A stretch of 64,000 nucleotides of DNA, taken from the NCBI RefSeq assembly GCF_003014485.1, contig NZ_PYGA01000033.1, positions 1-64,000 on the forward strand, written 5' to 3'. The notes under the pieces were generated by a model that worked only from the letters and a program-made list of their open reading frames with translations, was not told the origin of the DNA and ran no database searches. Positions within the stretch are counted from its first letter, which is position 1. Each line of letters starts with the position of its first letter. The stretch comes from Murinocardiopsis flavida. GTDB taxonomy: Bacteria; Actinomycetota; Actinomycetes; Streptosporangiales; Streptosporangiaceae. Below, one piece after another: positions 43,566 to 52,811 of this stretch. The translations under genes were made by a program, and so were the position numbers.

Positions 43566-44339
43566 TCAGAGGACGAGTCCGGCGATGGTCAGGGCCACGC
43601 CGCCCAGCGCGCACAGCCCGCATGCCACGGCGGTGATCTTGAGTTCCCGGTTGCCGCTCCGGACGAGTTCCTGCTCCTGCTTGCCGGAGACGATGAACTC
43701 GCCGTTCTCGGCGGGGCGGCCGATCTCCAGGTAGCCGTTGGCGTCGTTCGCCTCGCCGTGGACGAAGAGCCTGGTGCCGGCGCGCAGGACCCATTCCTCG
43801 TGCTTGTAGCCGATGGTGCCGTCGCCGCCGCCGGTGAACGAGATCGGGCCGATCGAGACGGTCTTCCGCCCGCCCTCGTGCGGCCGGAACACGTCGAGCG
43901 GCTTGGCGGCGCCGACGATCTCCGCGCCCTCCGGGCGGATCACGACCTTGCCGCCGTCGCCCTCGACGAAGAACGCGGTGTTGCTCCGGTGCTGCGCGAC
44001 CGTCTCGTTCCTGGTGGTGCGTCTGGTGCGGCCGTTGCCGTCGCGCCGCCTCTCCTCGTACCGCCGCGTGATCTTGTGGCGGTGCCAGACGCACTCGACC
44101 TTGTTGAGCTGCGACGTCAGCAGGCCGTTCCGGTGCGGCTGGGCGGTGCCGATCACCTCGCAGGTGTGGCGGAAGTGGCCGGGACCGGCAGCGGCGGCAG
44201 CGGCCTGCTGCATCGCACGGAGGTCGCCGATGGTGACGGTCTCGGTGCGCTGCAAGGATTCGAGCCGCGCGTTCGACCGGCGGATCCGCCAAGCGAGTAT
44301 CCCCGCCACGACGAGCAGAATGAGACCGATCCAGAGCAC
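43566..44339 (-). CDS. GIDE-domain membrane protein (E3-ligase MUL1-like, no RING)
   Basis: 257 residues. One N-terminal membrane helix (1-20), a soluble region with GIDE-domain features (HTCEVIGTAQPHRNGLLTSQLNKVECVWHRHKI, given here in parts: GLLTSQLNKVECVWHRHKI), a beta-rich centre (VSIGPISFTGGGDG), and two short C-terminal helices. It resembles the GIDE part of the mitochondrial ligase MUL1/MULAN; bacterial forms lack the RING and their role is unknown. GTG 44339 with GGGAGG eight bases upstream is chosen; the longer frame upstream is low-complexity. Confidence 0.75.
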   Translation of the reverse strand: MLWIGLILLVVAGILAWRIRRSNARLESLQRTETVTIGDLRAMQQAAAAAAGPGHFRHTCEVIGTAQPHRNGLLTSQLNKVECVWHRHKITRRYEERRRDGNGRTRRTTRNETVAQHRSNTAFFVEGDGGKVVIRPEGAEIVGAAKPLDVFRPHEGGRKTVSIGPISFTGGGDGTIGYKHEEWVLRAGTRLFVHGEANDANGYLEIGRPAENGEFIVSGKQEQELVRSGNRELKITAVACGLCALGGVALTIAGLVL

Positions 44340-44596
44340 GGCGCCTCCCGGTGGATGCTGCGAAACACCGGAGACTCTATCGGCGTGTCGCCGTGCGTCC
44401 AGATGGCCGACCGGAACCCCGACCGCCGCCGGGCCTCCTCTCCGGCGGGAACGGCCGCCTGGCGGCGGGAACGGGCCGCCACTGGGGCCGCCTTCGGCCA
44501 TTCCTGCGGGACGGCGCCGGCCGCCGCGCGCTGCTCCGGGGTCGTGAGACACCGGTGGTCCACCGGCGCGGCGTCCGGGACCGGCGCGCGACGCGG

Positions 44597-44649: not shown

Positions 44650-46083
44650 TCAGACTCCGGTCCTTTCCGCCGGTTCGGGGGCGGACTCCGGCGCGGCCCG
44701 CTTCGGGGACCGCATGGTGGCCAGGCCGAGCGCCGCGCCCGCCAGTGCGACGGTGCCGGCGCCGATGAAGGCCGCCTGGAATCCGCTGGTCAGCGCGGGC
44801 AGGTCGCCGATCCGGTCGGCGCCCTGGGAGGTGGCGACCGCCGTCATGACGGCCAGCCCCAGCGCGGAGCCGACCTGGTAGGTGGTGTTGACGATGCCGG
44901 AGGCGAGACCGGCCTGCTCGGGGCGGGCGCCGCCGATGGAGGCCATCGTGGCGGGGATGAACACCAGTGACATGCCGAGCGCGGCGACGAGCGAGCCCGG
45001 CAGGACGTCGGCGGTGAAGGTCCCCTCGGGGCCGATAAGCGAGAGTTGGCCGAGTCCGGCCGCGAGCACGACCAGTCCCGTGACGATCAGCGGCTTGGTG
45101 CCGAACCGGGCGATGAGGCGGCCGGTGATGGTCGTCATGAAGACCATCATCAGCAGCGTCATCGGCAGCAGCGCGGCTCCGCTCGCGAACGCCCCGTAGC
45201 CCAGGACCTGCTGGAGGTAGAGGTTGAGGAAGTACCACATGGGGATCCACGCGGCGCCGAGCAGGGTGATCGCGAGGTTGCCCGCTGCCAGGCCGGGGGT
45301 GCGCCAGACGCCGAGGGGCATCAGCGGTGTGCGCAGCAGGCGCTGGCTGATGACGAAGGCGGTCAGCAGCGCGGCCGCTCCTGCGAGCGCTGCGAGGGTC
45401 TGCGGCGCTGCCCAGCCCAGCTCCGGGGCCTGGACCACGGCGTAGACGGCAAGGGCGAGCCCGGCCGTTGCCGTCCCGGCGCCGATGAGGTCGACGGAGC
45501 CGCCGCGCCCCTTCACGGAGGGCAGCAGCGCGGGGACCGCCGCCAGTGAGGCGACGCCGATCGGGATGTAGAGGATGAACAGCCACGGCCAGCTCAGCCA
45601 TTCGGTAATGGCGCCGCCGAGGAAGACGCCCGCCGTCCCGCCGGCCGGTGCGGCGGCACCGTAGACGGCGAGCGCCTTGGTGAGTTCGCGGGAGTCGTGG
45701 CCGAACAGCATCATCAGCAGGGTCATGGCCGCCGGTGCGATGAGCGCTCCGCCGGCGCCTTGGACCGCGCGCCCCAGCAGTTCGACGTCCGCTGTGCCGG
45801 CGGCGGCCGCGACGGCGGACCCGGCGATGAGGATGAGCCAGCCGGTGACGAACACGCGCCTGGCACCGAAGAGGTCGGAGAGCCTGCCGCCGAGGAGCAG
45901 CAGGCCGCCGAAGGCGACGACGTAGGCGTTGAACACCCATTGCAGGGAGCCCTGGGAGAACCCGAGGTCGCGCTGCATTTCGGGGAGGGCGACCCCGATG
46001 ATCGACGTGTCCATGATGACCATGAACTGGGCCCCGGCGAGCAGGATGAGTGCCCACCAGCGGCGGTGGTTGATCGCGGACAT
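44650..46083 (-). CDS. MFS multidrug exporter, DHA2 (14-helix) family
   Basis: 477 residues, about fourteen helices. Family marks are LAGAQFMVIMDTSIIGVALP in helix 1, LGGRLSDLFGARRVF in the 2-3 loop, and GRAVQGAGGALIAPAAMTLL (motif C-like helix). Such pumps expel drugs or dyes with protons. ATG 46083 has AAGGAG nine bases upstream. The 300-bp leader carries a 17-bp palindrome, a strong hairpin, a small ORF and two CCCC/GGGG palindromes, so expression is probably tightly controlled. No regulator gene lies beside it. Confidence 0.88.
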   Translation of the reverse strand: MSAINHRRWWALILLAGAQFMVIMDTSIIGVALPEMQRDLGFSQGSLQWVFNAYVVAFGGLLLLGGRLSDLFGARRVFVTGWLILIAGSAVAAAAGTADVELLGRAVQGAGGALIAPAAMTLLMMLFGHDSRELTKALAVYGAAAPAGGTAGVFLGGAITEWLSWPWLFILYIPIGVASLAAVPALLPSVKGRGGSVDLIGAGTATAGLALAVYAVVQAPELGWAAPQTLAALAGAAALLTAFVISQRLLRTPLMPLGVWRTPGLAAGNLAITLLGAAWIPMWYFLNLYLQQVLGYGAFASGAALLPMTLLMMVFMTTITGRLIARFGTKPLIVTGLVVLAAGLGQLSLIGPEGTFTADVLPGSLVAALGMSLVFIPATMASIGGARPEQAGLASGIVNTTYQVGSALGLAVMTAVATSQGADRIGDLPALTSGFQAAFIGAGTVALAGAALGLATMRSPKRAAPESAPEPAERTGV

Positions 46084-46102
46084 GGCTGCGTCTCCTTGAT
46101 GT

Positions 46103-46119
46103 GTGTGCCCGTGGCACAC
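46103..46119. promoter_or_regulatory. Perfect 17-bp palindrome upstream of the exporter
   Basis: GTGTGCC-CGT-GGCACAC, ending 19 bp before the exporter ATG. It could be a repressor site or an RNA stem next to the ribosome binding site. Confidence 0.6.
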
Positions 46120-46161
46120 GAGAAGTAAAAGGGGGAGGGGGTATTCGCACGGGCGGGGAGG

Positions 46162-46201
46162 CCCGTGGTGGGCGCGCTGTCCGCGCCGCGCCCACCACGG
46201 G
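46162..46201 (-). terminator. Strong hairpin between leader ORF and exporter (attenuator candidate)
   Basis: 14-bp perfect stem (46162-46175 with 46188-46201), loop 12 nt. It lies 28 bp after the stop of the small ORF and 79 bp before the exporter, on the expected transcript. Confidence 0.65.
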
Positions 46202-46229
46202 TGTCCGTGGCGGATCGCGCGGGCTGCGC

Positions 46230-46301
46230 CTAGGCGTCGGCTCGGTCGGCTGCCGCCGTGCCGGGCGCGGGAGCGGATTCGCGGTGACAGGAGTCGCCCA
46301 T
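46230..46301 (-). CDS. Possible 23-residue leader peptide
   Basis: Translates as MGDSCHRESAPAPGTAAADR plus ADA. AAAGGGAC lies about 8 nt before the ATG. It starts 24 bp downstream of the 29-bp palindrome and precedes the attenuator-like hairpin and exporter, so it is placed as a leader peptide would be. Cys and His near the start could bind metal or sense amino-acid supply. No comparative evidence is available. Confidence 0.4.
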   Translation of the reverse strand: MGDSCHRESAPAPGTAAADRADA

Positions 46302-46324
46302 GGTCGTGTCCCTTTCTGCGCCGA

Positions 46325-46353
46325 ATTCATATACCCCTGTGGGGTATATGAAT
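46325..46353. promoter_or_regulatory. Perfect 29-bp palindrome with CCCC-TGT-GGGG core
   Basis: 13-bp arm ATTCATATACCCC, spacer TGT, then the exact complement arm. The TACCCC...GGGGTA core is the pattern bound by CsoR/RcnR/CstR-family repressors (copper, nickel or sulfane sulfur). It is locally AT-rich in a GC-rich genome. Confidence 0.75.
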
Positions 46354-46363
46354 AGAAATAACA

Positions 46364-46378
46364 TACCCCCGGGGGGTA
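46364..46378. promoter_or_regulatory. Second CsoR/CstR-like palindrome
   Basis: TACCCCC-G-GGGGGTA, 15 bp, 10 bp from the 29-bp palindrome. A further half site, GGGGGTAT, lies at about 46136-46143. No CsoR-type gene is in the window. Confidence 0.7.
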
Positions 46379-50324: not shown

Positions 50325-50483
50325 CATGGGGCGCGGGCCGCCGCGGACGCCGCACGGCAGCGCGGCCGCACGGCCCGCCCGCGTCCGGTCGCGCGCCCCA
50401 CCCGTCCGCCCTCAGCCCGTCGCCCCCTTACCTGACGGCGCTTCCCGCACCACAATCGGTCCCATGATCAGGACGGGGTGGGC

Positions 50484-52811
<2,328 letters not shown>

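Follow-up and report, generated by a model that had tools for sequence, protein, structure and literature searches.

In Streptomyces lividans, CsoR acts at type 2 operators of csoR, copZA1 and copZA2, and its site is ATATACCCCTNAGGGGTATAT with a TAC-N9-GTA dyad (Tan et al., 2013; PMC3902906). Among transporters of the major facilitator superfamily (MFS), CcoA and CalT are copper importers (PMC6362234), and EfpA, QacA, EmrB and LmrA are exporters of the DHA2 type. Here we describe the leader of a DHA2-type MFS exporter gene in Murinocardiopsis flavida (assembly GCF_003014485.1; 7.38 Mb, 99% complete), a member of the GTDB family that also contains Nonomuraea, Streptosporangium and Microbispora. 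The window analysed is a stretch of 64,000 nucleotides of contig NZ_PYGA01000033.1 (C33). The leader is very probably a copper-responsive promoter region under the control of CsoR that drives the exporter gene, with hairpins and a short open reading frame (ORF) that appear to be inherited from a copZ–exporter operon.

The leader shares with the S. lividans operators a G-tract pseudopalindrome and the TAC-N9-GTA dyad. It contains two CsoR-type boxes, A and B (Table 1), which start 32 bp apart and both carry the dyad with its G-tracts at every specified base. Box B with its flanks, ATATACCCCACAGGGGTATAT, matches the published 21-mer consensus at 19 of the 20 specified bases. These two boxes are the only perfect TACCCCN3GGGGTA sites in the whole genome. 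The arrangement differs from that in S. lividans in having two tandem boxes and an MFS exporter as the target, whereas the three targets published were the csoR gene and two copZA operons. The open-access literature yielded no account of CsoR controlling an MFS exporter, although subscription journals may hold one. Re-reading of the sequence placed the palindromes, ORF and hairpins where the initial annotation had located them, all on the minus strand and oriented toward the exporter; the GC hairpin described there with a 14-bp stem has one of 15 bp. The exporter start was corrected to the ATG at 46,083.

We analysed 80 fetched orthologous exporter loci, calling a box where at least 10 of the 12 specified bases, or a form one base shorter, occurred no more than 750 nt upstream. 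At least one box precedes 78 of the 80 exporter genes, and 74 have two. Their spacing is most often 36 bp (42 cases) and mostly 35–37 bp, compared with 32 bp in the window. Lack of such conservation had been named as the observation that would refute the finding; the boxes are conserved before orthologous exporters, and this sequence-based test therefore favours it. The exporter gene is embedded in a cluster of the form copZ–exporter–csoR–copZ–313aa–copA in Streptosporangium, Microbispora, Microtetraspora and others, and copper-cluster genes were matched near the exporter in 32 of the 80 loci.

Two further features of these loci may be recorded. The 313-residue protein, which has a His-rich C-terminus, is kept between copZ and copA in the copper clusters (L172:4680–5621 and L123:3840–4559) and is also found near copA in the M. 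flavida genome; no Pfam or NCBIfam model matched it at E 0.001. In two Streptomyces (L104, L118), separate CsoR boxes apparently serve a copZ-like gene and the exporter.

The M. flavida genome encodes one CsoR-family protein (PF02583). It fits the pattern R.{13}M.....YC.D.*H...C of Cu(I)-sensing CsoR/RicR proteins (PMC4531530), with the Cys-His-Cys ligands in place, and its top NCBIfam match is copper-sensing RicR (148.5 bits, below the cut-off of 175). Boxes with a single mismatch precede csoR itself (contig C11), two copZ genes (C1 and C29), a second copper-type ATPase gene (C13), and a segment of C1 that holds a homologue of the 313-residue protein together with copA. As in S. lividans, there is thus a Cu(I)-type CsoR with copZ and copA among its likely targets. 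The genome search for csoR- or cstR-like genes and further operator copies that the initial annotation had proposed therefore gave one CsoR, with related sites before csoR, copZ and copA; the earlier statement that no such regulator and no copper gene lies nearby is correct within the window and does not extend to the genome, where csoR, copZ and copA are found elsewhere. The sole CsoR-family protein, its shared regulon and the copper operons of the orthologues together point to copper as the responsive metal.

The exporter has a 14-helix MFS fold and an EmrB-like sequence, as expected of the DHA2 family. It matches PF07690 (MFS_1) with 163 bits (E = 1.2e-47), and its nearest NCBIfam model is the EmrB subfamily TIGR00711 (212.9 bits, below the cut-off of 230.2). 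The AlphaFold model has 14 helices and a pLDDT of 85.6, and its nearest solved fold is EfpA (TM-score 0.83). It shares both fold and sequence family with EfpA, QacA, EmrB and LmrA, and differs from them in its conserved methionines in transmembrane helices (TM) 1, 4, 7, 8 and 10 and in the copper-type operators upstream. The methionines were compared in 110 fetched exporter sequences, some loci being repeated, with one DHA2 family as the control. There are 14 Met columns that are at least 90% conserved in the exporter family and one in the control, a contrast weakened by the greater divergence of the control family (about 57% identity against about 73%). The ratio of Met to Val conservation is 1.9 in the exporter family and 0.7 in the control, and DHA2 paralogues in the same genome mostly have Leu, Ile, Val or small residues at the conserved positions in TM1, 4, 7, 8 and 10. 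By helix order in the model, the conserved methionines are in TM1 (22, 25), TM4 (121, 125), TM5 (139), TM7 (273, 283), TM8 (309, 314, 317) and TM10 (372, 380), with numbering that starts, as in the translated reference, at the codon preceding the ATG. TM1, 4, 7 and 10 line the central path of MFS proteins.

The ORF of 23 codons is located downstream of the operators and ahead of the exporter, in a slot that in Streptosporangium, Nonomuraea, Microbispora, Microtetraspora, Planomonospora and some Actinomadura is filled by a gene of 82–97 codons for a heavy-metal-associated (HMA) protein; the HMA domain (PF00403) assignment was tested on the protein of locus L049. The copZ-like gene ends about 25 nt before the GC hairpin, P1 (judged by eye, for example in L049), and the 23-codon ORF ends 28 nt before it. 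Shortened ORFs occupy the slot in some relatives, namely one of 52 codons that has lost an internal stretch (L056), one of 41 codons that is frameshifted (L071) and another of 41 codons that lacks the HMA domain (L048), and there is no ORF in other Actinomadura and most Streptomyces. Because the ORF occupies the exact copZ slot between operator and hairpin, and shortened forms occur in relatives, it is most probably what remains of a lost copZ-like chaperone gene rather than a designed leader peptide. Conservation of the 23-residue peptide had been suggested as a check, and the peptide proved not to be conserved. We note that several of the CopZ-like chaperones carry a Cys-rich N-terminal extension, such as MCTACACGT, ahead of the HMA domain (L049:3575–3853 and similar loci).

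Copper-dependent control of the exporter by CsoR is well supported as a prediction, because of the identity and rarity of the sites, their pairing and conservation in orthologues, and their linkage to copper genes, and because the genome encodes a Cu(I)-type CsoR with other likely targets. In the mechanism that we propose, apo-CsoR, encoded elsewhere in the genome, would occupy both TAC-N9-GTA boxes and keep the exporter gene from being transcribed; binding of Cu(I) would free CsoR, allowing the exporter to be made. The ORF and hairpins would descend from an ancestral copZ–exporter operon in which the chaperone gene shrank to its 23-codon stub and the intercistronic hairpins stayed. The likely CsoR copper regulon would then gain, across many actinobacterial genera, an MFS exporter whose core methionines are conserved. 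The operator arrangement is kept in many actinobacteria, and the exporter is therefore a promising candidate for a hitherto unrecognised component of copper defence. The locus may also offer a traceable example of a chaperone gene reduced to a stub within its operon, with the boundary hairpin retained.

Several observations weigh against this reading. In M. flavida, csoR is not linked to the exporter gene. Sites with one mismatch are not clearly more numerous in the genome than those of a reversed-pattern control (12 compared with 9), and at C5, C22, C13:173339 and C15 no copper gene was found alongside them, so that these may be chance occurrences. The boxes of the copper genes themselves are mostly of the TACCCT type, one mismatch away from those of the exporter. 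A consensus scan called no sigma-70-type promoter, and 48 of the 80 orthologous loci had no match to copper-cluster genes within the fetched DNA. The 23-codon ORF is too short to prove homology to copZ; agreement is limited to the slot, the bounds and one Cys codon. Finally, the window exporter lacks four methionines that are common in the family (139, 273, 380 and 384).

Table 1. Elements of the exporter leader, with their positions in the window.
Feature	Position	Strand	Basis or remark
Upstream CsoR-type box (box A), TACCCCCCGGGGGTA, TAC-N9-GTA dyad	46364–46378	-	12/12 specified bases
Perfect 29-bp palindrome, ATTCATATACCCC-ACA-GGGGTATATGAAT	46325–46353	-	Contains box B
Downstream CsoR-type box (box B), TACCCCACAGGGGTA, core TACCCC-TGT-GGGGTA	46332–46346	-	12/12 specified bases
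23-codon ORF, MGDSCHRESAPAPGTAAADRADA	46230–46301	-	AAAGGG upstream; probable stub of copZ-like chaperone gene
P1 GC hairpin, 15-bp stem, CCCGTGGTGGGCGCG / CGCGCCCACCACGGG	46162–46201	-	Folding compared with shuffles
Possible competing hairpin, CCCGCGCGATCCGCCACGG with CCGTGGTGGGCGCGG, would disrupt P1	46186–46223	-	Shuffle test
P3-like 17-nt hairpin, GTGTGCC-ACG-GGCACAC, adjoining exporter ribosome binding site	46103–46119	-	Folding compared with shuffles
Exporter ribosome binding site, AAGGAG	46092–46097	-	Sequence
DHA2-type MFS exporter, 477 aa, conserved methionines	44650–46083	-	MFS_1, 1.2e-47

The cargo of the exporter is less certain than its control. As a hypothesis we favour Cu(I) or a copper complex as the substrate, on the basis of the conserved methionines and the operon partners, other substrates being about as likely. 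There is close to an even chance that the exporter is induced by copper but carries an antibiotic, a lipid or some other metabolite, copper being merely the signal. The closest named families and solved folds (EmrB, LmrA, EfpA, QacA) are drug and lipid exporters, and in the 110 sequences of the exporter family neither Cys nor His is conserved, in keeping with such a cargo; however, the clustered exporters are partnered by copper-handling genes, and the conservation of Met within the helices is unusual. It is possible, though we put it somewhat short of probable, that the members of this family are MFS pumps that use protons to drive the export of Cu(I) or a copper complex, with the conserved methionines lining the central path and CopZ feeding the pump in the copZ–exporter–csoR–copA operons, forming a second route beside the copper P-type ATPases in actinobacteria. 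If the exporter does move copper, bacteria would have an MFS-type, non-ATPase exit for cytoplasmic copper. With CcoA and CalT it shares the MFS fold and Met pairs within the helices (here M121-x3-M125 and M314-x2-M317), but it differs in being a DHA2 protein with 14 TM that belongs to an efflux regulon. The CcoA/CalT signature of MxxxM in TM7 and HxxxM in TM8 is absent: no HxxxM was found, there is no conserved His, and the Met pattern is different.

The hairpins are part of an intercistronic element, roughly 120 nt long, that separates copZ from the exporter in 26 aligned relatives. It is composed of P1, a middle part with G/C pairing, and a hairpin that precedes the ribosome binding site of the exporter. 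The P1 core GGTGGGCG...CGCCCACC is at the same place in all 26, and P1 in the relatives has the almost invariant form GGTGGGCGTGCA-N6-TGCACGCCCACC; the place of the 17-nt hairpin of the window is taken by CGCATC...GATGCG. In the window, both P1 (z = -4.96) and the 17-nt hairpin (z = -4.45) are more stable than shuffled sequences, none of 200 shuffles being as stable in either case. A covariance model of the element finds matches in 35 of 250 genomes of the family. The window copy scores modestly against this model (18.3 bits; E 0.0077 over 64 kb) and is not listed by the genome-wide search at E 0.01. In six genomes that lack the exporter or have it in broken form, copZ is still followed by P1, and the later part of the element has decayed in several. 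P1 therefore seems to be tied to the 3′ end of copZ, perhaps as a 3′-end or stability hairpin. In L174, L175, L176 and L177 the exporter has apparently been lost from this place, and copZ is kept with its trailing P1.

Two other ideas about these hairpins were rejected. A general RNA family was considered: only 2 of 24 pairs show a double change, covariation being minimal because the arms of P1 are nearly invariant, and the matches examined sit behind copZ, so that it appears to be an element of the operon rather than a general RNA family; Rfam gave nothing relevant at gathering or relaxed thresholds. Pairing of the P1 loop with the exporter start codon occurs in one fold of the window and, as judged by eye, is not kept in relatives.

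The initial annotation suggested two tiers of control, a repressor plus an attenuator. Here CsoR repression would be joined by a real attenuator, with the 23-codon ORF as a translated leader peptide and either the ribosome position or copper selecting between P1 and the competing hairpin just upstream of it. We regard this second tier as unproven and unlikely, and the two-tier arrangement as a whole as improbable. The competing hairpin is part of the minimum-energy fold of the longer leader and pairs better than 995 of 1000 shuffled upstream segments, 5 of the 1000 pairing equally well. The window also retains the P1 stem despite its changed sequence, and Actinomadura macrotermitis likewise has a short Cys-containing ORF. 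Against this, attenuation is unlikely because the competing hairpin, possible in the window, is clearly above chance in none of 23 relatives. P1 is not followed by a U-tract, nor did a consensus scan predict a terminator at this point. Runs of regulatory codons are absent from the ORF, which is also not conserved, the corresponding slot in relatives holding a full chaperone gene, a truncated ORF or nothing. Moreover, P1 trails copZ even where the exporter is gone.

A response to persulfide or sulfide through a CstR operator, also raised in the initial annotation, is very improbable. The boxes of CstR are similar palindromes, and this resemblance is what speaks for it. However, the sole CsoR-family protein in a genome that is 99% complete has the Cu(I) CsoR/RicR signature and there is no second member of the family, so that CstR is unsupported; in addition, the orthologue clusters contain copZ, csoR and copA, which are copper genes and not the sulfur genes that CstR control would imply. 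Of the earlier reading as CsoR/CstR-type operators under metal- or persulfide-responsive control, the CsoR and metal parts are thus retained, the metal being copper, and the CstR and persulfide parts fall away. Chance palindromes within GC-rich intergenic DNA can be dismissed, even though the one-mismatch sites of the genome are near the control rate, because paired boxes with near-fixed spacing are kept across the orthologues, against a background of 0.055 boxes per 750 nt in the same 80 loci.

Two other genes in the window may be mentioned. One, adjoining the exporter gene (43,566–44,552, minus strand), encodes a protein that contains a GIDE domain, of the E3 ubiquitin ligase type. Further away, a single ORF of 777 residues (50,478–52,811, plus strand) combines a Ser/Thr protein kinase domain (residues 16–257) with an HSP70/DnaK domain that extends to residue 752, an unusual fusion.
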